The position numbers and the translations under genes are program-made. 64,000 bases of DNA from Paramecium tetraurelia (lineage: Eukaryota > Ciliophora > Oligohymenophorea > Peniculida > Parameciidae), in contig NW_001798982.1 in NCBI RefSeq assembly GCF_000165425.1, positions 195,369 through 259,368 on the forward strand. The letters are read 5' to 3'. This document shows, piece after piece, positions 4,518-54,933 of this stretch (the first letter of the stretch is position 1; each line of letters starts with the position of its first letter). The notes under the pieces were generated by a model. The model ran no database searches. It saw nothing but the letters and a program-made list of their open reading frames with translations, and was not told the origin of the DNA.

Positions 4518-7446
4518 ATGAATCGAATATGTTTATATTAATTTATGAATTATTAAATACTGTTTTATACACAAATCATCCAAAACATCTGGTGGATTAT
4601 CGGGTCATTGGTTTTTTATGATCCTAATGAATATTTCATTTGTGGTCTATCTATAGCAATCATCATTATTCGGATAATTCTAATTGTATTGGAGAAATGG
4701 GTGAAGGAAACACTCCTATATCAAATTTTATATTTGCTCCTTAATTGTTTGTATACGGAAGTAAGTATAAGAATGCCGATGAATAATCCCTTTGTTAATC
4801 ATTCAAATTCAATCATGATTATAGCCAACTATTGTTATGCAAACACAGATTAATAGCAGAATATTCAAATTATATCAAAATTAGGATTTCCAGTTTATTC
4901 AATTCTAAGAACGCTTTCCATCACATTCATTTAATCCAATTATACAATATTGGAAAGCTGTCTCATCAATCTGATATTTTTATGCCTCGTTACCCAAGAC
5001 TTGATAATGTCTAAGATCGATGGAACCTAAAGTGCTACAAAGTAACTTAATTTAAGTGATCAACATAATTTCAATTCTCAATTTATGACATTTGTTCAAT
5101 AAGATTCCAGAAGACAGTCGTTTGGAGCATCCTTCAAAAAAAGCAGGACTCATTATTCACAATAACCTTAGGAGAAACAAGAAGTCTTTTCCAGCATTCC
5201 TTTAAATAATAAACCTTATACAACCGAAGACAATATAAGGAACTAATTTCCATCAATGCAGAAGAAAAAGAGTTTTAATAAAAAAATTTCAATTGTTAGT
5301 GTGGATAAAGCAGATCAGCCTCTTCACACATTTTTCTAGAATTTAATAAATAGTATTTTCTCTGCAGGAGTAATAATATTGAATTAAAATTAAAAAGTAA
5401 CCTTTATGAACAATAAGTGTGAAAAATTACTAGGATAAAGAGGAACTGATAAAGTGTTGGACAGCATCAAAAAAATTATACTAGAGAATTCTTTATTAGA
5501 AGAAGATGAATCACCTTTAACATCCATTCCTCCTCGATCTTAGGCTTAGATGAATAAGGCAACATTTGAACGAATTCTAAAGTAACATCGGAACAATCAA
5601 TAAGAGTTAAATATCTTTGATGCCTTTTTGCATCCTCAAAACTACTTAAATTCACTGTATTAAACAGTTTCTCCAAACTATGAATTTGATTAGAGGAGTA
5701 GTATGTCCGAATCATTCAATGAGACATTTGTCCAAAGGAAAGATGTTGTTACTTATGAACACATCATGAATCAAGAGGGGTGCCCTCTTAAGAAGTTAAG
5801 AATCGTAATTATTCCCACCTATATGACTTCTTCTTAGCAGGATTAACTTTCTTAACCCTCATTACAGAAGGTCCTCATTAACAAGGCTACCAACATAGAT
5901 GCAGTTCAGCCTATCATTGTTATCAAAATCAAGAATATAACTAAGAAACACAAAATTGAGCAGATGAATAAGGAAAAAGAGACTCATAATTCACTACTAA
6001 AATCCTTTTCTCATGAGTTGAAAACACCGTTAAATAGTTGTTAGGATATGTTACTGATCATTAAGGATAGGATACAGGATTAAAAATTGTAAGTTTGTGT
6101 TGAAATAGCTCATGTTTCAATTATCTTTCTTATTCATTAAATAAATGACATTTTAGATTATGCAGCTATGTAATCGAATACTTTTAAATATAGATATACT
6201 CTATTTAACATGTAAGAGTTGATAGAAGATATTAAATATATTTATAACGGTTAATTGGAATCTAAGAAAATAGAATTTAATATCAAAATAGATGATAGAG
6301 TGAACAATTTGAATATACGATCTGACAAATAAAGGATCATGCAGGTACTTATCAATTTGCTAAACAACTCTAGTAAATTTACTCCTCAAGGAGGTAAAAT
6401 AGTACTATCTATCAAACCAGTTGAAAATCACCTTATCAAAATTTAAGTGAAAGACTCAGGCATTGGCATTGGAACTGAATAACTGTCAACCTTAAGAAAG
6501 GTTCTGACCAGCTCTATGGGAAAGAGTCTTCATCGTTCAAGAATTAAGAAGAGTCTAGGATTAGGATTAAATATTTCTGCCAGAATAGTCGAAGGATTAG
6601 TTTAAAAGTATGATGGCACTCTAGAAATCAATTCCAAACACAAAAATTAAGGAACTAAAATATATTTTAAAATAGAATACCAAATGTCCTTCAGAGACGA
6701 AACTCTAAGAAATCCGATGATCTCTGAATACACTAACAAACATAACACTTATAAATAAATGATCTCATAAAATGAACCTAGTCAATTAGAACAGGGAGGT
6801 TAGAGTTTGTTAAGATAATATTCAGAGAATTCTAAAAGTCTTGAACAGATGTCTCCCTCTAAACAGAGTAAAAACACAAAGAGTAGATTCTACAAATTAA
6901 TGCCAGCAAGTTAGACTGAGAGTTCCCTTGAAATGGTCGACAATGCTGTATATAATATAGAATTACCAATAAGTCCTGATTATTTTAGATACAAATCTCA
7001 AACCTAAAGTCGCACTTGCTAATTGTGCACTCAATGCATTCAAGTTTTAATTGTGGATGATGTCCCATTCAATTAGATAGCACTGAAGGCATTATTGCTA
7101 CATTATTATAAAATATAGGCAGATTAAGCATATGATGGATATTAAGCCATAGAGATGGTTAAGAAATAAACATTAAAGCACTGTCAATATTATGCTTTGA
7201 TTTTTATGGACATTGAAATGCCAGGAATTAATGGATTCTAAGCAACAAGAGAAGTAATCAAATTTATTTATTATATATTAGATACTTGAAATTACATAAG
7301 CCTCTACTGAGATTGTGATGTGTTCAGCTTATGATACGGAAGAGAACTTTAGGGAGGGAGAGGAGGTGGGAATATCTGAGTTCTTACCAAAACCTGTTCA
7401 CTAAAAAGACTTGGAACGGATTTTAAGACAATTTAGTTTGATATGA
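4518..7446 (+). CDS. Hybrid sensor histidine kinase 1 (membrane, HisKA-HATPase-REC)
   Basis: A two-component hybrid kinase: ATP-dependent autophosphorylation on His, then transfer to its own receiver Asp. The start MNRICLYQFMN is followed by a hydrophobic N-terminal region with the motif QNIWWIIGS that all four paralogues share (about 5-6 membrane spans). The H-box is FSHELKTPLN, with the phospho-His codon at 6012-6014. The N-box is VLINLLNNSSKFT, G1 is DSGIGIG and the G2 region is GLGLNIS. The C-terminal receiver has LIVDDVPFNQIALK and the phospho-acceptor Asp in FMDIEMPGINGF (codon 7209-7211), then CSAYD and FLPKPV. An intron at 7254-7281 (28 nt) splits the receiver at the same place as in the other copies. 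The gene ends at TGA 7444-7446. A phosphorelay partner (HPt protein) is not seen in the window. Confidence 0.9.
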
Positions 7447-7669: not shown

Positions 7670-10488
7670 ATGAATCATAAATACATTTTCCTTATACAAG
7701 TTATTTAAAACATCTGGTGGATTGTCGAAATGTAATTTATTAAAAAGTCATCAAATTACACATATTATTTTTTGTGTTCATTATGCTTAACAACAAGGTT
7801 ACTTGCCTCTATAATATACTTAAAAAAACACTAGAAGTACGACCGATTTATTCTCTTAACTACTTTAGCCAATAATGTTTGCTACACTGAGGCCAATATT
7901 AACTTTGAAAGCCAGAATTTATATTTAAATCATATCAACACTTTAGTCATCCTTCTAAATTACATCGAGGCCCAAACACTAATAAAACATTAGTAACTGG
8001 ATCTGCTCTCAAGATTTGCATTTCCTACTTATATCCTAATAAGATTGATCTCCCTAATATTCATATAGTTTGATATCCAACTCTGTGAAGCTACTACTTT
8101 GATGGCCTTGTTTTTATTTGTGTACTTTTCAAAATAGGATGACGCTATGCATTAAACACAATCTCATCCAAAATTAGACCAGTCCTTATAAAATTGTTCT
8201 GTCTCTATGCATTAATCGTAACCCAAATAAGAAAAGCGCCTCACTTAAAATTCAAATAAACTCATCCTCTAACCTGACAAAAACTCATAACCCAGAAATA
8301 GTATCTAAATTAACATCAAAGACTCTTACAGGGAAGAAAGTGCTCCCATTCCTACATTTCATTCTAAACTTAGACCAGGCTTCAAAAGCTAATATTCACA
8401 TTTAGTAGTCGACAGAAATGACTCTTAACTATAAAATTTCTATTAGAATCTTGTCAACGTTTTGCCAGAAGGAGTTATAATGTTAAATAAGTTTTAGCAA
8501 ATTCAATTCATTAGTTCAAAATGTGAAAAGCTATTGGAATGTGATGGGAAAGAAAGAGTGCTAGAATACATCAAAAGGTGTCTGGCTAATTGCGATTTAC
8601 CAGAGGATGTTTAATCGATAACAAAAACAAGATGTAAATTGACATAAAGAGTTTTGGAAGAAATAATCAGAATTTATAAGTAGAATTCTCAGGAATTAGA
8701 TATTTTTGATGTCTTATTGAATCCGAACAAATACATCTAGGCCTTGTTTTCGGGATAGAACGGGTCATTTGAACAAGAGAGAAGTAGTTCTGGTTCAATT
8801 TATTTTTCTGATCCTTCTCAATTATAGGAACACACTTTTTGCTTTGAAGGCTCAATTGATAAGGAGAAGTGTGATCAATCTAAGAAGCTTAAGTTTATTT
8901 TGGTTTAAACTTCAATGACGTTGAGTTAATAGGAAGCCATCTCATAGAATGGTTTGACCAATTCAAAAAAGTAGAATACGAACGATATGCCTCAACCAAT
9001 TCTTTTGATCCTAATTAAGAATACCACACATAAGAATAGAGTGAGGGAATTGAAAAAGGAGAGATTAATTAACAACTCACTCTTGAAGTCCTTTTCACAT
9101 GAATTGAGAACTCCTTTGAATAGTTGTTAGTATATGCTGAATCTGATCAAGGAGGTCTCAAAAGATGAACGTATAGAGCAATACCTAAACACAGCATAAA
9201 GTTCAATTAAATTATTAATCTACTAAATAAATGATATTTTAGATTTTGCTGCTATGTAATCAAAGACTTTCTCTTATCATACAACTTCTTTTTGTATCAA
9301 GGATTTTATTTAAGAGATCCATGAGTTGTATGATCAACAAGTAAGTTATAAAAATATCAAACTAGAAATCTAATATGATTAATCTTTATAAAATCAATTT
9401 TTCATCAATGACAAACAAAGAATTATGCAAGTCTTGGTTAACTTATTAAATAACTCTTGTAAATTTACAAAGCCTGGTGGTGAGATTCTTATACTATTTA
9501 GACAAATGAAAGGCAATTTAATCGAAGTGTCTGTTCGAGATAACGGAATTGGAATCTAATCGAATAAGTTGGAATAGCTTAGAAAATCCTTCTGTAAGCC
9601 CTCCTCCTAAATATGTTAAGATTCTGGCCTTGGATTTGGTTTGAAGATAGCTGGGAAAATCATCAAAGGATTAACCTATAATAAAACATACTTGGACATC
9701 AACTCAAATACCAAAAGTGGAACCCAAGTTTCTTTTCTATTTTAAAACTAAGAAATCATGAATTAGGAATGCTTACTATCTCCATAACAAAGTAATATCA
9801 CTGGTAGATTTGAAATATTGTCTCCTGCCTCCTCCTCCCATCTTATCCCAAAATCAGAATCCTTGATGAAAGGTCTGCACTAGAAATTTGAAAGTCCCCA
9901 GAATGAATCAACCATCCTTAAAGAACAATTAGAAAGTCCCAGAATCAAGGACGACCAACAAAGTTCAGTGGTTATTCCGATAAGTTCTTATCTTTTCAAA
10001 GATAATCTTACTCAAAAGAATAAAAAACAGAGTTCAATATTATCTTTTTAAATAAATGCCAATAACAATTGTGAAAGTTGCTCATAAATCCTAATAGTTG
10101 ATGACATACCATTCAATCAAATTGCATTCATTTAGACATTAAATTATTTCAAAATAAACGCCGAGTCTGCTTTTGATGGGTACCAAGCCGTTGAGATGGT
10201 GAAGTAGAAATTGACCAAACACTGCAAGTTCTATAGATTGATATTCATGGATATTGAAATGCCAGGTTAAAACGGTTTTTAGACTTCTAAAATTGTAAGA
10301 GTACTTCTTTATATAATTAGATCTCGTAAATGCCTGGTGTCCAATCAATAATCGTTATGTGTTCTGCGTACGATACTCTTGAAAATTATAATTGTGCCCA
10401 ACAAGTAGGAATAACTGAATTCTTGCCAAAACCTGTAAATAAGAAAGAGTTAGATAAAATCCTAAAAAAGTATTTATTCAAAATTTGA
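7670..10488 (+). CDS. Hybrid sensor histidine kinase 2
   Basis: Second copy of the array, starting 224 nt after the first. The start MNHKYIFLIQVIQNIWWIV matches the N terminus of copy 1, and a polytopic membrane region follows. The catalytic region has KSFSHELRTPLN (His codon 9098-9100), VLVNLLNNSCKFT, DNGIGI and SGLGFGLKI, so all kinase boxes look intact. The receiver reads LIVDDIPFNQIAF, then FMDIEMPGQNGFQ, CSAYD and FLPKPVNKKE. A 26-nt intron at 10295-10320 lies in the receiver just after the phospho-Asp loop. The protein ends at TGA 10486-10488. Its product probably sits in a cellular membrane with the kinase domain in the cytoplasm. The ligand is unknown, because the N-terminal part is nearly all membrane with no large outer domain. 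Confidence 0.9.
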
Positions 10489-10703: not shown

Positions 10704-13599
10704 ATGAAACTATTCAAAGTACTTGCAACTCATATAATATTGATTGCCAATATTCTCCAAAGTTTGTGGTGGATGATAATGGCTTTATATTTGATCTAAC
10801 CAAATGACTACATAGTGTTTTATTTACAAATAGTGTGTGTCACCATGAGGGTTTTATAATAAATATTGATCGCCAGAAATTATGGTTTGTTTTTATTTGT
10901 GCATATAGTATCTCTTTTTTACTACGTGACGTATATTGAATCTTTGCTGCTATTTCAGAATGATTACTCATTGGGCATCTTCTCAAACAGTTTATTAATA
11001 ATTGTTACTTACAATTCATATTTGAAATTTGCAGTTTAAAAGTGGAGTTAGATTTGTAAGTTGGGACTTCCATTTTATATTATATTAAGACTAATCTCCA
11101 TCATATTTATTACTTTTAGTTATTATTCCCTAGAAAGCCTATTAATAATAATCATTGTTTTAGTTTAATATTTGTTAACAACAGATTAATAAATTGAGCG
11201 AATTCATGTGAACAATAACTAAGAAAAAGTCAAACCTAAAATAAATGCCAGAGTGCCAGAATTATAATTGAAAATAGTGGAAGAGAAGGAATCGCCTCAT
11301 TATCTGCAACAATCTTTACTAAAATCCTTAAGCAGAGCCTCACTGATCCAAACACCACTGAAAAGTTAAAGCATTTTGATGAAAGACCAACAAAGCGATT
11401 CGAAAATGGGATTATTATCAAATTTAACCAATTTATCAAAATCCAACAAGAATAACAAGGGTTCTAGTTCTGAAAAATCAGATTTATAGTTACACATATT
11501 TTACTAAAACCTTATCAATATATTTCCATAAGGCATTTTGATATTGAATCAATTCTAATAAGTCAGTTATATGAATAATAAATGTGAAAAACTATTGGAA
11601 TGTTAAGGAGGGGATCAAGTGTTGGAGAAGATAAAGATATGTGTTAACGATGCCAAAATGTCAGACAATGAAAGTGAAGTCTCTAACTTTTTGTAAACCC
11701 CAAAACAAAATAAGTAAATTAATTAATACACTCTCCAAAGGATAGTTAAGAAATTACAGAAGGAAAACAGAAAAGCAGACGTTCTAGATATTATGCTCTA
11801 CCCTTAAAAATACTATGGAATTATAGATTAAAAAGCAGAGCCATGTAGTTAAGAAGATTCAAAAACTGATTAATTGACATTCCAATAGTAGGTGTTTATA
11901 TACGAATGGTTAATGGAAACTGAATCACTGAATAAAATCAATTAAAAGAAACTCAAATTGGTCATCATCCCAACATTCATGACTGGTCAACAGTAAGAAT
12001 ACATATCTCTTCCATCATAAAATAAGTGTTCCAGTAAATTGAACATCTAAATTAGTAATGATGCAGAAATACCAGTCCTTCTCATCATGATTAAGAATAT
12101 TACTAGTAAACACAAGTATCAATAAATGAAGGATGAATAAATTATTCACCATAGTCTTATCAAATCATTCTCTCATGAATTAAGAACTCCATTGAATTCA
12201 TGTTAACATATGTTAAGCCTTATCAAGAATTAAGTCATAGAAAAGTCTGTGTTAGAATATATTGATATAGCCATGTGCTCTATTACCCTATTGATCCATC
12301 AGATTAATGATATACTTGATTATGCTGCCATATAATCATACTCGTTCTCGTATCGCATAAATAAATTCACCATCAATTAGATCATCCAAGAAATCGAGAA
12401 TCTCTATAAAATATAAATGAGACACAAATAAATCAGATTCAGTATTAAAGTTAAACAGTCTTTGAGAGAAGCAATCATTTCTAATGACAAATAACGAATT
12501 CTATAGATACTGGTTAATTTATTAAATAATGCTGCCAAATATACAAAAGAGGGAGGGAAGGTTAAACTCACTATCAAGTAAAGTAGATAATACTATATTA
12601 AAATATAAGTGAAGGATAATGGTATTGGAATTGAAGATGATAAGTTAACCTTGATTCAAAATAGTTTGAATGGTAATTTGGAATTTGGTGCAAGATTAAA
12701 AACTCAACAAGTTACTTAAAAGGCAGGATTAGGCTTAAATATTGCAGCTAGATTGGTAGAAGGATTGGTTGAATAAAATAATAATTAATTGTTCATCAGT
12801 TCAATTAAAAACCAAGGAACAAAGGTCTAATTTTAAGTTTAGAATCTCATAAATGCTTCAAATGATTAATTTTAATCTAACTTAGTATCCTAATTGACAG
12901 GAAGATTCAATTAATCAGGTATTTAGGGAACATTAAGTGAAAGAAAATTTGATGATAGATTGCTAATTAAGGCTATGAATTAAGATAGTTAATTTTAGGA
13001 GAATTATGTCTATGAATCAGAATCATCTTTGAATACTCCTCAATTAAATGATTATGCTAAACAACCTTAGATATCTTTACCTATAAGTCCTGAGTACTTC
13101 TCTCATAAATTCATTTCTTCATATAAAAACATTTTGCGTACAGATACAATTCAAAAGTCAACTTCAATGTGTGATAAGTGTGTTCATGTTTTGATTGTTG
13201 ATGATATTCCATTTAATCAAATAGCACTCAAATTGATGCTCAAACATTACCAGTTGGAAGCAGATCAAGCATTCGATGGGTTATAAGCAATTGAAAAAGT
13301 GAAAGCAAAATTTTCGGAACATTGTTCTACTTATAAATTAATATTCATGGATATTGAAATGCCTGGCATCAATGGTTTTCAAACTAGTAAACAAGTAAGA
13401 TTCCTTAGTTCTATTATAGATCAACGAATTGACGAAGTAGCAATCAATGATCGTCATTTGTTCGGCCTACGATACTTAGGAAAATTTTATTGAAGGACAA
13501 AAAGTTGGGATCTCCACTTTTCTTCCAAAACCTGTAAAGTAGGACGAATTGGAAGTAGTGTTGAAGTAACTCTTTTAAATTAAAAGGAATTTTTTTTGA
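10704..13599 (+). CDS. Hybrid sensor histidine kinase 3
   Basis: Third copy. Its start, MKLFKVLATHIILIANILQS, leads into the LWWMIM version of the shared N-terminal motif and several hydrophobic segments. The kinase core has KSFSHELRTPLN (His codon 12174-12176), LVNLLNNAAKYT, DNGIGIE and AGLGLNIAARLVEGL. The receiver holds LIVDDIPFNQIAL and FMDIEMPGINGFQTSK, with a 25-nt intron at 13395-13419, then VICSAYD and FLPKPVKQDE. The TGA is at 13597-13599, and the next paralogue starts 125 nt later. Between the membrane part and the kinase is a Ser/Gln/Lys-rich linker. Phosphorylation-dependent signalling is inferred from the family; no substrate can be named. Confidence 0.9.
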
Positions 13600-13724: not shown

Positions 13725-16705
13725 ATGAATACGAACATAATTTTAATTTTAGAAGGAATGTAATGCATATGGTGGATAACGTTATGCATCATTTTCTAAT
13801 AAGATCAATACATTATTATCATAGGATTGTCTTCTGCGTCGATCCTCATTAAATTAGGATTGTTACTGCAATTTAGAAAAAATTTAAATTCAAGTAAACT
13901 ATTAGCGATGCTATTACTAATCCTTGTTGATACTGTTATCTACACTGAAATAAATCTACTCTATTACCAAGTTTTTAATCCTTTTTCTCATTATACTAAC
14001 ACACTGTTCATAGCAACCAATACATATATTATTAAAGAAATTGTGTCTAAATAAATCTCATATCAATTGCTCATGTTATTTTATCCATGTTACATTGTGT
14101 TGAGACTATTCTCAATTGTTTTTATTAACTTTGATTATACAATTTTAGAAAGTGTAATAATCATACTGGTTTTTGTAATTGCTAATTTTGCAGGTGAGAA
14201 ATCTCTAGTTTCTGCTAAAATTCGCTTAACTTAACAACTGAATGATGATGAACAAACAGATCGACATATACGTGATATTAAATTTTCAAAATAAAAATAA
14301 AATGAATTTAGCCATTTTAATGAATAGCTCAAAGACAAACTGAAGCTTAGGAACCTTAGCATTCACTCCAACAAACCTCAATCCTACAATGATTTGTCTT
14401 CCATCGTTAAATAAAAGGAATCTATTGATTTAGATAAATCAGACTCGTAATTTAGATTTTCCTTAGCCAAAATTTTGCAAATAATACCAGATGGAATAAT
14501 TATTCTAAATAAATAATAGAAATTGCATTTTGTCAACAAAAAATGCGTTAAATTATTGTAATGCAAGAATGAAGAGTTAATACTGCCAAAACTTAAAGAT
14601 TGTTTAAGAAATCAAATTATCAATATGGATAATTGTACACTTAATCAACAATCTTAAAATAACAGAAAAACTGAAATGAATCAACAAGTCTTGGAAGAAA
14701 TAATAAAAAAGGCGTAATAAAATAAGGTTTAAGTTGATATTTTTGACGTGCTACTGAATTAGAACAAATATTTGTATTAACTTCATTAAGGCACCTATGA
14801 TGGAGAGAAAAGCAGTATTGATGATTCTCGAGTCTCACAAAATAATTAAAATCAATATCATTTCAACCTTTCTTTAGAATCAAACAAATCCTTGAAACTT
14901 AAGATCATACAAACACGTATGTCTAATTAACAATTAGATTCCATTCTATAAAATGATATACAGATCTTTGGAGATTAAATGAATCAACCTGTTTTGGTGT
15001 TAATTATATAAGATGTCACCTATAAACAAAAATTCCAAAAGGTTGAACTTAAAAATTAATAATTCTGTCATCTCCTTAAAAAATAACTGTTTCAATTAAG
15101 AACTCCTCTCAATTTGAGTCAACAATACTTAAGAATTGTTAGTGACGTAACTAAAGAATAAGAATAAGAAGTTACTGAAGGATTAGAATTGCTCAAGTGT
15201 TCGACTTCTTTTCTTCAATACTAAATTAACAATATTTTGGATTTTTTATCATACCAACTTAATGAGTTTGCATATTTTTTCTGCAGATTCTAGATCAATG
15301 ACTTAATAGATGAGATTGAATAAGTGTTTATTCCTTATATATTTCAAAAGAAGATCTAATTTTAAATCAGATTTTCATCAAGTCTGTCCGATAGGTATTT
15401 CAATTCAGACAAATTGCGAATAGTCTAAGTGTTGTTAAACATTCTAAATCATTAATGTAATAACATTATAAAGGGAGGAGAGGTGGGTCTAACCTTTCTG
15501 GCTAAAGATGATTTAACCATTTAGGTAATTGTAGAAAATAATTCAGTGCAAGAGAACAGAAAGAAGCAATTTTCATTTAATTAAATAATGCTCAAAAGTC
15601 AAGAACTTGACAGCTGTTATGGCTTGATGATTCATCCAGAACTAGGATTTGGATTAAATTTAGCAGCCAGATTAGCATCAGGTTTAATTGAAGAGAACAA
15701 TAATGTAGAAGTATTATCGAATTCGGTTGATGGTAACAGCATAAGCTTTTTGATTCAGGATCGAATAAATAAAAAGGAATAGGATTCAATATTATAAAAA
15801 GATTAAATTTAAATATTCAATAAAGAATAGGATTACATTTTGGATAAGGAATAGGATCTAATGTTTAAAAAGTAATAAAATTAAATTTTGGTTAGAGGAT
15901 AGGATCGAATTAATGAAGATTAATATGATTAAATATACGAAAAGGACTAAGATGAAATGTTTTAAAAGGAATAAACAAGAAATCAATCCAATACTGGTGG
16001 ATTTATGACTAGGAATAAATCTTAATCCGAGTAACAAGAAGACAATTTTATTGTTAGAAAATATTGCTATTAGGATAACACTAATCAGTATGAGAATTCA
16101 GAAAAGCTCGTATAAAAGTCTGAAGGTTTGAAGTCATATGAAAGTCCAAACGTAATTGAGGATCACAGTGAACGAATAATCATACCTTAATCAAATTATT
16201 TTTAATTTAAATCTTTTGAAAGTCCAAGGTAAATAATAATAAATAAGACATTTTCATTTAAAATATCCACCTTATAATTACATGAATGCAACTCTACTTG
16301 TAAAAAGATTTTGATAGTTGACGATTAGATTTTTAATCAGATTGCTCTCAAAGCTACTTTAAATCGTTTTGCAATATAATGTGATTAGGCATATGACGGT
16401 TATTAGGCAATCCAAAGAGTGAAGGAAAAACAGCAAACCTCTTGTCCATTTTATGATATCATATTTATGGACATAGAATTACCAGGATTGAATGGATTTG
16501 AGACTACGAAAGAGGTAAGTTTACTTGTCTATATTAGATAATGTCGATGGGATGCAAGAAGTCAGCAATTGTAATTTGTACAGCTTACGATACAAAGGGT
16601 AACTTAATGTAATTTGAACATTCTGGGTTATGCGATTATCTACAAAAACCAATACTTTAAATTGAACTACTCTAAATTCTCAAAAAATATTAATTAGTTA
16701 AATGA
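13725..16705 (+). CDS. Degenerate hybrid histidine kinase 4 (no phospho-His, receiver retained)
   Basis: Fourth copy, starting MNTNIILILEGMQCIWWIT, again with the shared Trp-Trp motif and membrane spans. At the H-box the sequence is KKQLFQLRTPLN where the paralogues have KSFSHELRTPLN, so the acceptor His is replaced by Phe (codon TTT 15090-15092). The N-box is reduced to NILNHQCNNI and the G1 box DxGxG to ENNSV, while GFGLNLAARL survives. The receiver is well kept: LIVDDQIFNQIALK, FMDIELPGLNGFE, TAYD and LQKPI. A 23-nt intron at 16515-16537 is at the conserved receiver position. The frame is open throughout, so this is a maintained gene, not debris. It probably acts as a pseudokinase or as a phosphate sink or scaffold for its neighbours. 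Its stop overlaps the next start codon. Confidence 0.85.
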
Positions 16706-18384
16706 TTATTGTTTTATTATGTCTAATTACTTTCTGTAATTCAATTGAGATATATGTTAATACGATAAGACCTAAAGATAATCCTTCAGAGACTTACACG
16801 TATTACGAGTTGCCGTATTGTAAGCCGAGTGATTTTGAGGAAGTGATTGAATCCTTGGGACAATCATTATCTGGTGATAAATAGATGACTTCAGTTTACA
16901 AGTTCAATTCAAAAGAGAAAATAGAGGATAAACAGGTATGCGACAGAAATTTTACAAAAATGGAAATGAGGAAATGGATTGATGCAATAGATTAAGAATA
17001 TATGATAGAGTTTTATTTGGCTGATTTTATAATGCATGATGTAGTGGGCAGATTTTATGATGGGCAATATTATCTAAAGAATAGGATCACATTTAATCTA
17101 TATGTGTCGAACGACTCTCGATTGATGTATGCTAATATCACAAAGAATGAGACAGATTTTATATCAATAAATTCATAAGATGAGAAAAAGGAGATTGGAT
17201 TCTACTATACAGTCTAGATCAAATAGTATATTGAGACGATGGTCGTCCATGATCACAGTGTCAAGTGGAATTTGTTAATATTCAAAAGCATCTTAATATT
17301 AGTGTTAGTCATAATAGTTAGCCAAGTGTTGAGGAGATCAATATTAAATGATTACAGCAATATCCCTGATGAAGAGAATGAGATTGAACCTCAAGGCTGG
17401 AAGGCAATCAAAATTGAATCTTTGATGCCTCCAACCAACCGCATAGTGTTTTCTGCTTTACTTGGAACAGGCATTCATTTCTTGATAACAATTCTGATTT
17501 TGTTAATATTGGGGTCATTTTATTTGTTTGAGACTCATAAGGGGTCTATAAAATCAGCAGGAATAATCATATATAGTTTTGGCGGATGTAATTGAATGTG
17601 TTATTAATTTGTTTAGTAATCAATGGGTATTATACGGGGAAGTTCTATAAGTTTTATGGAGGCAAGAGTTGGTTACTGAATTTGTTCATAGCAGCAGCCC
17701 TTTTTCCGATATCTGCAATGTCAATTCTTTTTATTATTGATGTGCTTTCATTTTTGTTCGGAACAACATCCACCTTCTCATTTACAGCAGTATTTTCAGT
17801 TGGATTCATTCTAACAGTAGTGTACTTGCCCTTAACTTTGATAGGAGGCGTTTCAGGTCGACTGAGAACCATAGACGAGTTGTTCGAAAAAAGGTTGAAG
17901 AAGAAGGTGCTCATCTCTAATTATTAGTTCCTATCAAGTGGATGCTTGTATGGAATTGTGCCTTTTATGTATATTGAAACATTTAAGTTATAGATCGATC
18001 ATTATGGAGCTGTATTACATTTTGGAAAGTACATGGAGTGATCAATAATTTGAGTAATACACGTTGTTGATCTTTTCCTACATTCAATTATTGATTATAG
18101 TGGGTTGTCTATCTATTATCCAAACTTATAAGCAATTGAATCAGGGCAATTATAATTGGCAATGGATATCATTCATCAATGGAGGACAATGTATCATATA
18201 CATCTTCGGATTTATCTTCTTTTATTATTACTTTGTGAATATGCATGGGTTCTTTTAATTTTTGTTTTATTTTGCAGAAAGCATATTGGCATGTTTTGTC
18301 TTATGGTTGATGTTGGGATTTGTGAGTTATTGGATATCATTGAAATTTGTGATTTATATTTATTCATAAAATAAAATTTAATGA
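16702..18384 (+). CDS. TM9SF / nonaspanin (EMP70) family membrane protein
   Basis: Nonaspanins are nine-pass endosomal/Golgi proteins involved in membrane protein sorting. The start gives a signal peptide, MIIVLLCLITFCNS, followed by the family's lumenal signature IEIYVNTIRPKDNP and TYTYYELPYC. After the lumenal domain come MPPTNRIVFSALLGTG, a block of membrane segments, LIGGVSGRLRT, the late motif MELYYILESTW and NYNWQWISFINGG. Two introns restore the frame: 17588-17616 (29 nt) and 17969-17993 (25 nt). The TGA is at 18382-18384, and length (about 540 residues) fits the family. The ATG lies on the stop of kinase 4 (ATGA), so same-strand coding regions overlap by 4 nt. No alternative downstream ATG would keep the signal peptide. 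Confidence 0.88.
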
Positions 18385-19629: not shown

Positions 19630-19949
19630 TTATCATATTAAATATGAAAATATACGTTTTGATTTAAGTACTTAAATCATTTTTAGAAATGACTTTTACT
19701 ATATCAGATGACCATATGGTAATTCTAAGATTCTTAAATCATTAGAAACTATCATTTTTTGAAACAAAGATGAGAATAGTTTGTAAATACTCTATAGTTT
19801 TGTAACTAATTTACACTCTTAAGTAAAGTACTTCCAAATTTAAATGACTTATATACTTATTGATATATTTTGTTGCAATTTTGGCTACTAAAATTAATGA
19901 ATCACATTAAATAAACATATAATTTTATTAATAAATATTTAACGACTTC
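19630..19949. other. Intergenic, no gene seen
   Basis: 320 nt of AT-rich sequence between the SHIPPO gene and the next coiled-coil gene on the same strand. No open frame with protein-like composition, repeat or RNA motif was recognised. Confidence 0.5.
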
Positions 19950-22024
19950 ATGGATTAACAGATATCCTACTATCAAACTCAATAATTCCAAGAACCCAAT
20001 CAAGATCCACATAAATCTCAAAGGGCCTAATCCAATACAAGGGATCTCTTGACATCTCCCAATATTGTCTATGTCACCAGAACCATTCCCCAACAACAAA
20101 CTCAACCACCTATCAGATTGGAAACCCAGCAATTGAAACCCTCATAATCTTAATATAATATTAAGGTCTAAGAGATAGTTAAAGTGGTTGAGCCATCCAG
20201 AGAAGAACTTGAGTTTTATAAAAATAAGTGTTCCCTCTATGAAAAGTAAATCCAAGAACTTACAAATGAAGTCCACAGACTCAAAAGCACTTGTCAAGAG
20301 AAAGTCACCTATATTGAAGACACTCATAGAGTCTAACAATTAGAAACCAATCTATAATAATATTAAATTGAACTCAATAGAGTAAATACTCTCCTTAGAG
20401 AAACTACAAATGAATCAGAATAATTAAAGATCAAAGTATCTCAAATGACTCAATAATTTATGGCAATTCAACAGAATCAAGTTGAATATGAGAGAATTAA
20501 AAAGAGTTCTTAGGACAATGAACAATATTGGTAGAATGAAATCCAAAGATTAAATGTACTTGTCTCTCAAAGTCAATCCCAATTACAGTAAATGCAAAAG
20601 ACCTTAATTGAAAGTAAAAAGTACGAACAATCATACATCCAATAGTAATAAGTACAAAATTAATTGACTACTGAACTTGAAAGAATTACTGCACTACTTA
20701 AACAGAAATCAGAAGAATATGATCAATCCAAATAAACATACATTAAAGAGATTGAGATTCTGTCTAAACGTTTGAGAGACTCTGAATCAGAAAATTAGGA
20801 TCTGAAGAATAGAGAAATCAATTACAAATAGAGCATTGAGAATTAATACAGGGAGAATTAAAGTCTTTCAGATAAATATATGAATGAATTGCTCAACAAA
20901 AATGAGGAGATTTCTAAACTGTAATCCATTATTCAAACACTTCAAATGACTCTATAGGATACTTCCAAATATCAGGAGTATGAAATCAGATCTAAATTAT
21001 AAAATGAAGAAATTAACAACCTAAATCAGAGAATCAGAATTAAATAGGATGAATTAGACAAATGTAAATAATAAATAATGATTTATCAGAATTAGTTATA
21101 AGAGCATCAAAAGTATACAGATTATGAAATCAAATATTAAAATCTTGCTTAGGAATTTGATAGAGTCAATAATTCATTAATGATCAAACTATAAGAAAAT
21201 GATCAATTAAGAAATTGCATAGCCAAATTATAGATCACTCTTAATGATCATTACAAAGTTGATGATTATGAAAACAAAATTGGATTATAAAATCAAGAAA
21301 TCGATAGATTACATTAAAGTCTCCAACACAAAACTGAAGAAATAGACAGACTGGCAAATGAAAATAGTAGAATGTCATAAATAATGAGATAAAGAAATGA
21401 GGAACTAGAAAATTTGAAATTCAAATTATAAGATATAACTTAATTGAAGGAATATCAATAGAAGTTTGCTTTACTCAGCACTGAAATTGAGAGATTGACT
21501 GTTCAATTGAGAAATAAGAATGAGGAAATCGAAAAAGTTAGATAACAATTTTCTTAGTTCTAATTAAGTGAAGCTCACAAATTAAAAGAGTTAGAATAAA
21601 AGAACGTAGTTTATTCTACAGAAATAGAGAGATTGAGCAATTTATTGAAAATTAAATTGTAAGAGATAGAATCAAATAAAATGAGCATCAAATAATTATA
21701 AGATGAATGCGAGAATCAAAAGTTTAAATTAATCAATCAATAAGAAGTAACAACTTACAATGAAAGAATTACACAGCTTAATCAAGAGGTTGATTCTTGG
21801 AAGGCCTAATTTATTAATTTAAATAGAGAATACCATAAACAATAAGAATAGCTTATATTATCAAATGCTGAACTCGATACTTTTAAGAAACAGAAAAATG
21901 GATCTTTTAGAGTAAATAATATTTCTATTTAATTTAGGTTGAAACATACGAAATTGTCAAAGAAAATCAAAATTCTAAGATTTCCTAATATCAGTACGGA
22001 ACATTAACCACTAGAAATATATGA
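19950..22024 (+). CDS. Long coiled-coil protein, unknown
   Basis: I do not recognise the family. The first ATG of the frame gives MDQQISYYQTQQFQEPNQDP, a short Gln/Pro-rich head of about 90 residues. From VEPSREELEFYKNKCSLYEK onward the protein is an almost unbroken heptad-like Glu/Gln/Lys/Leu coiled coil of some 580 residues. Recurring phrases such as EIERL and NEEI with regular Leu spacing suggest a parallel rod. One 26-nt intron (21912-21937) lies near the 3' end; after it the protein ends RVETYEIVKENQ...TLTTRNI at TGA 22022-22024. A structural role in basal bodies or the cortex is common for such proteins in ciliates, but nothing in the sequence proves it. Confidence 0.8.
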
Positions 22025-22126
22025 GTATCAAAAATTATACTATTAAATTATATATAAATTAATTATTTATGAATTGGTTAAAGAGTCCTGATAGATATAT
22101 CTTAAATTCTATCTTTAAATTATTAA

Positions 22127-52399: not shown

Positions 52400-54933
52400 A
52401 TGAGATTAAATGACTTGACAGAATCTAGGAAGATGTTGAAACAATTTAAGGATAAGGATGTCAGACCGCCAAGGTCATATAGTGATTTCTCGAAATCCCC
52501 AAGATAATTGTAGTTAGATACAACTCAATTGTATTCGTGGGGTAAGATTGTTATTTAATGTAGGTTTAAATACTTGTGGTTAACAATTAAAGAATAATAA
52601 AAACATAACTCCACACTATTAAGGAGTGACATTATGTTCTGCAGGAGAAAATCATACTATCATAGTGAATAATAAGAATGAAGTTATAGGGTTTGGTGAC
52701 AACTAATTTGGGTAATTGGGATATGAATCAAATACTCAACCGAAATTGAGTCCCATATTCAAAGATCAAAGGATAACTAGCGTAGTTTGTGGAGCTGAAC
52801 ACACATTTATGTTGACAGCTAAAGGCGAAGTTTATTCTTGGGGTTTAAATTTGAAAGGCCAATTAGGTTTGGGTTGTTTCGATAACATAAGTCAGCCCAC
52901 TCTCGTATATGGGTTATTACCATTTGGTAATAGTAATGGGAAGGCAAGAGAACAATAATAGGGTCATAAGCGGATGAAGAGTGCCAATGAAGGGGATTAG
53001 TCTACATCTCCAGGATTGAAGGAGAGATCTTCATCAATCGACAATATAATGGAGTAGCTTGTGATGATGAAAGAAAAGATTAAATAGAAGAATACGAATG
53101 AGAATTTATGTTAGATTCTATTATAAAATGACGAAGCAGTTTAATAAGTCGCATGTGGTGCATTACATACTTTAATATTGACTAACAAGAATAGAATTTT
53201 CTCTTGTGGTTTTGGTGAATCATATGCATTGGGACACTAAGAGAATTAGACAATAAGTGAGTTTAAATTAATTTAAAATTTATATCATTTTAAAGTGGAG
53301 AAAATTAGTTGTGGCTTAGCACATTCAGGTTGTATCATTGAAGGCGGAAAACCTTATTTATGGGGTTTTTGCAAATCCAATAAAGAATTTTACAAATAAC
53401 CAACTCAAATCAAAATTGTAGATGAATTCAACAATTAGTAATGCGTATTGGACATGAAGATGGGTGAAATGTATACCTTGTTTTTAACAAGCAAAGGTGA
53501 AGTATACTCTATGGGAGATAATATTCAAGGGTAATTAGGAAATGATTTAAACAGTTCTGATGTGCCTATTAAAATTTTGGGTTTGCCATTGATATCACAG
53601 ATAGCAGCAGGTAGAAATCACAGTCTGGCTTTGTCTGCAGATTACAAATAAATATATGGATGGGGTTCCAATATCTATGGATAGTTAACGGGATAGCCAA
53701 GTGTAAATGGAAAGGGAATCATCTTACCTAAATTGTTATTCACAGTGCCTGAAACTCAGAGAATTGTTTGTGGTAATTTCCATTCCATTCTGTTATCGCC
53801 ATCATATCTCGAGATCATTTTGGATGAAAATGACAATTCCAATAAGGAGTAGGATAAATTGAATGAAGAGGTTGAAAAATATAGGAATGAATAAGAAATA
53901 CTAAAATAATAAAACATTTAATTACAATAAAAATATGACAGGATGAAAAATGAATTGTTATCGAAAAAGAAAGTGAAAGACTAAAAAGTGTAAACAACAG
54001 AATCGTACATTTAAAGGCAAATAAAAAAACAACAATCTAAATTTGATATTTCAGCATTGGAGATCTCCCCAGAGAGACCAATCAAACATAGAATATTTCA
54101 ATCTAGTTTGGACATAGATTTCAATGACATTATGTTAGAGAAACAAATCAGTGAGGGAGGCTATGGAGTGATTTATAAAGCAAAATGGAGGGAAACTACA
54201 GTAGCTGTTAAGATGTTTAAGATAGATGGAATGAATGAGAATCATATTAGAGATTTTCTATCTGAATGTCATGCCATGGAGGCTTTGAGACATCCAAACA
54301 TAGTAATGTTTCTAGGTGCTTGTACTAAACCACCTAATCTAGCTATAGTATTGGAATATTGTTAACGAGGGTCATTATGGCAGGTGATATAAAATCATGA
54401 TATTCATTTGACTTGGGAAGATCGAAGGAAAATGGCATTGGATGCTGCAAAAGGAGTGTTGTATTTGCATTCATTCAACCCTCCCATTCTCCATAGAGAT
54501 TTGAAAAGTTTAAATCTGTTGTTAGATGAAGCATTTAGAACCAAACTGGCTGATTTTGGTTGGACCAGAACATTATCTAATTATATGACTAGCAAGATTG
54601 GAACCTATCAGTGGATGGCACCTGAAGTAATCGCAGGATAAGTGTACACAGAAAAGGCAGATGTGTTCAGTTTTGGTATCATCTTATGGGAAATTGCTGC
54701 CAGAGAACCTCCTTATAGAAGTACTTAATCCAATTTATGAAATAGATATCACTGGATTATAAGTGTCTTTGGATGTTTTGAATAACGATTTTAGACCAAC
54801 TATTCCGAAGAAGACTCCTGAAGTCTTTACACGATTGACTAAGAGGTGTTGGGATAGAGATCCAGAGAAGAGACCTTCTTTTAAGGAAATCATAAAGGAA
54901 CTAGAAATGATGAAATTCCCATAAGGAGTGTGA
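52400..54933 (+). CDS. RCC1-repeat protein fused to a TKL-type protein kinase
   Basis: About 825 residues. The start is [16 protein letters not shown]. After YSW, a 22-nt intron (52542-52563) leads into GLNTCGQQLKNN. RCC1-like beta-propeller blades follow: [98 protein letters not shown] and [21 protein letters not shown] coiled coil ([10 protein letters not shown]) joins these to the kinase: [14 protein letters not shown] glycine loop, [25 protein letters not shown] and [10 protein letters not shown], which is typical of tyrosine-kinase-like Raf/MLK kinases. A 25-nt intron (54721-54745) lies after EPPYR. The end is at TGA 54931-54933. All catalytic residues are present. The propeller may act as a partner-binding or regulatory module, as in NEK8/NEK9, though those are NEK kinases. 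Confidence 0.9.

Follow-up and report, generated by a model that had tools for sequence, protein, structure and literature searches.

Autophosphorylation of hybrid histidine kinases requires the phospho-accepting His, the N-box Asn and the DxGxG motif, and the locus described here raises the question of what a member of this family could do once all three are gone. The histidine-kinase family is reported to be greatly expanded in ciliates (excerpts of PMC3341644; further background in parts of PMC9430884, PMC9981736, PMC10946202 and PMC4029085). A head-to-tail row of four hybrid histidine kinases occupies ~4.5-16.7 kb of the window, the 64,000-nucleotide stretch of Paramecium tetraurelia DNA analysed here (from the contig called C29 below). 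An earlier reading of the letters alone (the sequence-only reading) had proposed that the fourth, copy 4, is a maintained kinase stripped of its phospho-His and ATP boxes but not of its receiver.

The array and the gene model of copy 4

Window genes decode with the ciliate nuclear code (table 6); the DNA is A+T-rich and introns are 20-30 bp, all as expected of Paramecium. The array and the parts of copy 4 are as follows, in window coordinates:

4545..7446, + strand: copy 1, His-bearing hybrid kinase (end per spliced model)
7670..10488, + strand: copy 2, His-bearing hybrid kinase (end per spliced model)
10704..13599, + strand: copy 3, His-bearing hybrid kinase
13725..16705, + strand: copy 4 gene; exon 1 13725-16514, intron 16515-16537, exon 2 16538-16702, TGA 16703-16705; 985 aa
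13725..14200, + strand: N-terminal hydrophobic region of copy 4, probably multi-pass membrane (limits approximate; judged from sequence and family alignment)
14463..14591, + strand: core of a weak PAS-like match in copy 4 (PAS_8, E 4.7e-4; 20.4 bits, below the Pfam cut-off of 21.8)
15006..15296, + strand: degenerate DHp (HisKA-like) region of copy 4 (limits approximate; Pfam HisKA match absent here, present in the C173 orthologue)
15297..15761, + strand: degenerate CA (HATPase_c-like) region of copy 4 (limits approximate)
15820..15934, + strand: linker repeat of copy 4, KEQD-rich coding, 24/48-bp imperfect tandem; missing from the C52 and C173 copies
16299..16705, + strand: receiver (REC) of copy 4 (start approximate; complete once spliced)

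Copy 4 is a membrane-PAS-degenerate kinase-receiver protein of 985 residues, whose PAS-like region probably extends to about residue 430. The frame had been described as open over 2.9 kb; the coding sequence is indeed intact, but a 23-bp intron (GTAAGT...TTAG) within the receiver must be spliced for the part with the switch Lys, and splicing restores the segment with CTAYD and LQKP. The end coordinate, 16705, is exact. The intron position is common to copy 4 of C29 and of two further contigs, C52 and C173, and all three frames are full-length. C52 and C173 copy 4 are shorter by about 50 residues at the KEQD-rich linker; since neither has the repeat, it probably expanded after the C29-C52 duplication. 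Some short introns that the splice script called in the N-termini or linkers of C29 copies 1 and 2, C52 copies 2 and 3, C91, C173 copy 1 and C86 may be spurious, and the script probably left an intron unspliced in the C179 and C75 models; the copy 4 models are free of such problems.

Downstream, the first ATG of an EMP70 (nonaspanin) gene (window 16702-17595) overlaps the copy 4 stop (ATGA, 16702-16705), as it also does on C52, and a genome search matched these two places only; we infer that this ATG is the true EMP70 start. Elsewhere in the window, a 747-aa open frame at 19848-22091 has strong AT skew (0.245 in 20001-22000) and no Pfam match to E 0.01, and an ORF at 52440-54740 joins RCC1 repeats to a protein kinase domain.

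Orthologous copies and related arrays

Searching the 69-Mb, 231-contig assembly with copy 4 gave at least 52 matches (45 of 195 candidates scored), and among the matches scored two are orthologues, C52:88566-91460 and C173:447254-449884. The proteins measure 985 (C29, the window), 936 (C52) and 923 aa (C173); identity is 74% over 927 positions for C29-C52 and 48% over 911 for C29-C173. The tree groups them as (C173,(C29,C52)) with support 100/100, a clade unaffected by the long branches that come together between it and the copy 2 clade; copies 3 of C29 and C52 pair at 100/99, and C173 copy 1 pairs with the C86 member at 100/100. C29 and C52 are colinear, the upstream PH-domain gene and the downstream EMP70 gene having orthologues that flank the C52 array. 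The C173 and C86 arrays would stem from an older duplication, an origin that rests on the arrays and the tree because neither flanking gene was matched at C173 or C86. From what is known of Paramecium, we take these array duplications to be whole-genome duplications.

Among the four possible arrays (C29, C52, C173, C86), copy 1 was found in three, copy 2 in two, copy 3 in three and copy 4 in three, so that copy 4 has been retained as often as its active siblings. Neither C173 nor C86 yielded a copy 2; copy 1 is absent from C52, and the 4 kb expected to contain it showed no relic; and the 6 kb inspected on C86 hold a single family member, of the copy 1 clade. Copies 3 and 4 adjoin on C29, C52 and C173 (gaps of 125, 118 and 94 bp, respectively, from the copy 3 stop to the copy 4 ATG) and neither was found on C86: they occur together or not at all, a pattern that linkage alone can explain.

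Loss of catalytic residues in the kinase core

The residue comparison uses 14 aligned family members: copy 4 from C29, C52 and C173, and 11 His-bearing relatives. The positions of interest in the window copy are:

15090..15092, + strand: Phe456 in the phospho-histidine column (codon TTT; His in 11/11 relatives)
15438..15467, + strand: degenerate N-box NILNHQCNNI (Asn column, His576; Lys column, Asn579)
15534..15551, + strand: degenerate DxGxG (G1) box, ENNSVQ
15645..15653, + strand: retained G2 motif GFG (G641 and G643; sequence GFGLN)

Where copies 1-3 have an H-box of the form KSFSHEL(K/R)TPLN, copy 4 has KKQLFQLRTPLN; Phe takes the place of the phospho-His in each of the copy 4 proteins and in none of the 11 relatives, which bears out the His-to-Phe change that the sequence-only reading had placed at 15090-15092. 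The three proteins keep the H-box Pro, and none deviates from LRTPLN next to the lost His. The ATP boxes had also been called lost, and this holds for two of them. In the N-box, quoted correctly as NILNHQCNNI, the Asn column reads His, His and Tyr and the Lys column Asn, Asn and His in C29, C52 and C173, respectively; the DxGxG site, ENNSVQE against KDNGIGI in copy 3, has its Asp changed to Asn, Asn and His and its Gly residues to Ser, Ser and Glu and to Gln, Gln and Leu. The N-box Asn and DxGxG are gone from 3/3 copy 4 proteins and from 0/11 relatives, but the G2 box does not fit the claim, its two glycines being kept in all three copies. The residue table thus agrees with the earlier statement that copy 4 lacks what autophosphorylation needs, and since His, N-box Asn and DxGxG are lost in all three copies, the protein would not be expected to autophosphorylate. 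A substitute phospho-His near the H-box, of the kind suggested for RcsD, was considered and rejected: His449 of the C29 and C52 proteins is Glu in C173, which leaves no conserved candidate adjoining the box.

Error or chance as the source of the His loss is excluded, as two further genomic copies, on C52 and C173, share it. The C173 protein is also informative about the order of events. Its H-box, FSFELRTPLN, is the canonical box with the His alone replaced, and it still matches Pfam HisKA (E 2.9e-6) and faintly HATPase_c (E 0.023), which the C29 and C52 copies do not; a near-canonical box with a HisKA match suggests that loss of the catalytic residues came first, followed by erosion of the boxes on the line to C29 and C52. 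In the window, copies 1-3 pass the cut-offs for HisKA, HATPase_c and Response_reg; in copy 4 only Response_reg does (E 3.5e-11), PAS_8 and Diguanyl_cycl_sensor falling below theirs. A profile of the three copy 4 cores nevertheless matches histidine kinases in the PDB (best 4jas, E 1.2e-9; 16 distinct sequences to E 0.01), chains of RetS among them, which makes it plausible that the core would form a helical dimer stalk. The NCBIfam LuxQ match scores best over residues 449-595, with an E-value that covers the whole protein including the receiver. Judged by its residues, copy 4 is a pseudo-histidine kinase: it is homologous to histidine kinases, has lost the catalytic residues and yet persists as a gene. 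The preservation of three copies makes a non-catalytic role alongside the active siblings probable.

Selection on copy 4

Constraint was estimated with a pairwise codon model (own script, GY94 with F3x4, table 6). Between C29 and C52, copy 4 has an overall omega of 0.127 (927 codons; 2dlnL against omega = 1 of 318), beside 0.093 for copy 3, 0.078 for copy 2 and 0.043 for the pair C173 copy 1-C86. By region, copy 4 gives 0.218 (TM, the highest of the seven), 0.031 (linker 1), 0.109 (PAS), 0.080 (DHp), 0.108 (CA), 0.107 (linker 2) and 0.101 (REC), rough values given that dS runs from 0.43 to 9.1 across regions of this pair; all are well below 1 (smallest 2dlnL 33.2). Pairs across the older duplication were not used because their synonymous sites are saturated. 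The proposal that the gene is maintained therefore stands, with purifying selection and a His loss common to the orthologous copies within the genome, and the dN/dS check that had been suggested for its kinase and receiver parts finds 0.097 (DHp+CA) and 0.101, with no relaxation across the gene.

These results bear directly on the idea that copy 4 is a decaying pseudogene or an assembly artefact. Pfam does fail to detect HisKA and HATPase_c in the window copy, and the C29 and C52 copies are more eroded than that of C173; against this stand three full-length copies with omega well below 1 in all seven regions, and the contrast with C52 copy 1, which is gone with no relic detected in 4 kb. Intact frames and omega rule out pseudogene status, the sequence-error alternative fails on the C52 and C173 copies, which carry the same loss, and we consider decay or error extremely improbable.

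How strongly is the dead core held? For DHp+CA, omega is 0.097 for copy 4 (bootstrap range of 60 resamples, 0.015-0.168), 0.082 for copy 3 (0.039-0.129), 0.116 for copy 2 (0.078-0.161) and 0.025 for C173 copy 1-C86 (0.007-0.048); because the ranges overlap, the dead core can be taken to have been recently about as constrained as the cores of the two active sibling pairs (copies 2 and 3), and the range of C173 copy 1-C86 overlaps that of copy 4 as well. The receiver of copy 4, at 0.101 (0.036-0.205), is if anything under weaker constraint than those of its active siblings: 0.032 (0.014-0.079) for copy 3, 0.044 (0.016-0.102) for copy 2 and 0.010 (0.004-0.025) for C173 copy 1-C86, the last without overlap. 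One array with and without catalysis offers a natural contrast for studying selection on a dead kinase core.

Over the older duplication the picture is different. C29-C173 identity of copy 4 is 56% (TM), 44% (PAS), 45% (DHp), 41% (CA) and 62% (REC), against 43, 68, 77, 68 and 73% for copy 3, lower in DHp and CA, higher in TM and nearer in REC; the use of C173 copy 3 as a same-age control rests on its adjoining C173 copy 4, because the tree does not resolve it as sister of the C29 and C52 copies 3 against C91, C179 and C75. Positions at which the 11 His-bearing relatives never differ retain their residue in every copy 4 protein in 7/10 cases for TM, 8/24 for PAS, 16/35 for DHp, 13/31 for CA and 36/44 for REC. 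Clades 1, 2 and 3, each scored against the other His-bearing members, keep 24/35, 24/30 and 24/26 (PAS), 35/40, 35/40 and 35/35 (DHp), 31/37, 31/37 and 31/38 (CA) and 44/48, 44/48 and 44/47 (REC), an approximate comparison as the reference sets differ. Across the older duplication, copy 4 has preserved its membrane region and its receiver best.

A core so constrained could itself be the working part, as an allosteric partner that pairs with or docks on an active sibling or a phospho-receiver and alters its activity, as DivL does on CckA and RetS on GacS, phosphotransfer to its own receiver being secondary. The recent DHp+CA omega, close to those of copies 3 and 2, is in keeping with this, as are the invariant LRTPLN next to the lost His, the RetS chains matched by the core profile and the precedent of DivL, a His-less core that senses a phosphorylated receiver (excerpts of PMC4211667). 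Such a role sits less well with the C29-C173 comparison, in which the core, measured against copy 3, has diverged more than any other part of copy 4 and the receiver is its most conserved part, and a purely allosteric core would not need a complete set of receiver catalytic residues; we regard it as possible, on the unlikely side.

The receiver and the proposed function of copy 4

Two positions of the copy 4 receiver matter most here:

16470..16472, + strand: Asp916, expected phospho-acceptor
16646..16648, + strand: Lys967, conserved receiver (switch) Lys, in exon 2

The receiver motifs are VDDQ, FMDIELPG, CTAYD and LQKP, and the catalytic set (Asp, Asp, phospho-Asp, Pro, Thr/Ser, Lys, Pro) is kept in 3/3 copy 4 proteins, in line with the intact receiver described earlier. 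The DDxPxN Pro (position 869) is lost in all three, and at 8 of the 44 receiver positions where the relatives never vary, one or more copy 4 proteins carry a different residue.

We hypothesize that copy 4 is a maintained membrane pseudo-hybrid kinase whose receiver is phosphorylated in trans by an active sibling, most likely copy 3, and give this reading about even chances. Copy 4 would have arisen within the tandem hybrid-kinase family, lost its phospho-His and Mg/ATP boxes before the older of the two array duplications, and then have been kept as a protein after catalytic loss. Its core would now be a probably folded, probably dimer-forming stalk that links membrane and PAS input to the intact receiver. 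Copy 4 would associate with one of its His-bearing siblings, and the receiver would, as the most likely step, take the phosphoryl group from that sibling's His in trans. The natural candidate is copy 3, whose stop lies just upstream of copy 4 on C29, C52 and C173. The outcome could be a second, separately regulated receiver output or a phosphate sink. The sequence-only reading had suggested that copy 4 could accept or drain phosphate from its neighbours or serve as a dimer scaffold, and both roles are plausible. We count against this proposal the nominally higher omega of the receiver, the TM region having the highest omega, the loss of the DDxPxN Pro, the 8/44 receiver changes, and the failure of Pfam to find an HPt that would carry phosphate beyond the receiver.

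The lost Pro is also compatible with a receptor or scaffold that works independently of phosphorylation, in the manner of the ethylene receptors: membrane input would pass to a protein that binds the receiver or the core without His-Asp chemistry, possibly with Ser/Thr kinase activity, which has been reported in vitro for subfamily II receptors. The combination of architecture and losses resembles that subfamily, and some receivers with an intact Asp, such as that of ETR1, were found not to be phosphorylated (excerpts of PMC4972365). The retention of Asp, Asp, Asp, Thr/Ser, Lys and Pro in 3/3 copies, however, points to selection on phosphorylation chemistry, and no Ser/Thr kinase model matched in the domain searches of copy 4, which leaves this alternative unlikely in our view.

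Related kinases and HPt candidates in the genome

Pfam HisKA has 124 matches genome-wide, counted per exon and not per gene. A DNA pattern for the H-box, left open at the His codon, hits 56 genomic places. His is encoded at 50; the other six comprise C173 copy 4 plus five places that are no more than expected by chance, a reversed control pattern giving 6 matches. The one of the five that bears Phe, C162:268668, has no family-like kinase in the surrounding 1.7 kb. Other eroded pseudokinases could be missed, because the pattern is strict and fails on the C29 and C52 boxes.

Could pseudokinases be common in this genome? Twenty receiver places without a nearby HisKA match were picked by eye among 50 scored of 229 candidates; the 8 inspected all have His, N-box Asn and DxGxG, which speaks against the idea, and two of the other 12 (C160 and C175) have a His-bearing H-box ~0.9 kb upstream. 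Eight intact-His hybrid kinases are missing from the Pfam HisKA matches, a possible cause being non-consensus H-boxes (e.g. SHEFGTLLN, NHKLKTPLN) or an intron-split domain; when run on unspliced DNA, Pfam may undercount the histidine kinases of ciliates.

For HPt, Pfam gives 0 matches genome-wide beside the 124 for HisKA. An HPt-motif pattern has 11 genomic matches against 2 for its control, and none of the 6 inspected by eye is HPt-like; small introns could hide an HPt. Either the HPts are very divergent or intron-split, or phosphotransfer ends at hybrid receivers. A more radical version of our proposal, which we think rather improbable, is that copies 3 and 4 form an obligate kinase-pseudokinase pair, copy 3 providing the phospho-His and copy 4 a dedicated receiver output, within a ciliate two-component network that may lack the HPt step. 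If true, signalling would run through receivers on membrane pseudokinases instead of a soluble phosphorelay.

Comparison with known systems

Copy 4 is a new case within a known functional class, that of ETR2/EIN4, DivL and RcsD. ETR2 and EIN4 carry receivers and, like copy 4, coexist with motif-bearing paralogues. They also combine a membrane sensor, a cytosolic sensor and a kinase core largely without signature motifs (excerpts of PMC4972365 and PMC3485614). Unlike copy 4, they are a plant family with an ethylene-binding TM domain and a GAF domain; none of the copy 4 proteins of C29, C52 and C173 has a GAF match up to E 1, those of C29 and C52 showing weak PAS instead. Because the nearest relatives of copy 4 are kinases of its own genome, its origin would be separate from that of the plant ethylene receptors.

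To our knowledge DivL of Caulobacter has no receiver, unlike copy 4. In both, an aromatic residue replaces the phospho-His (Tyr550 in DivL, Phe456 in copy 4), PAS domains are present, and autokinase activity is absent, as measured for DivL and expected for copy 4; DivL still binds an ATP analogue weakly, whereas copy 4 is without N-box Asn and DxGxG (excerpts of PMC4211667). The enterobacterial RcsD likewise has a pseudo-histidine kinase domain and partners an active hybrid kinase, but it may use another His (excerpts of PMC3762810), for which copy 4 has no conserved candidate beside its H-box, and its output is an HPt where that of copy 4 is a receiver. RetS of Pseudomonas, also bacterial, is a hybrid kinase that acts on another kinase by blocking GacS autophosphorylation (excerpts of PMC4866733).

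Among the top-listed open-licence papers, screened by title and abstract start, no report of a ciliate pseudo-histidine kinase was found, and little on the wiring of the ciliate family. Preserved via two duplications, copy 4 offers a testable entry to how sibling kinases pair and where their phosphate goes; beside the systems above, it would add an independent example, from a eukaryote other than a plant, of a receiver kept and a kinase discarded.
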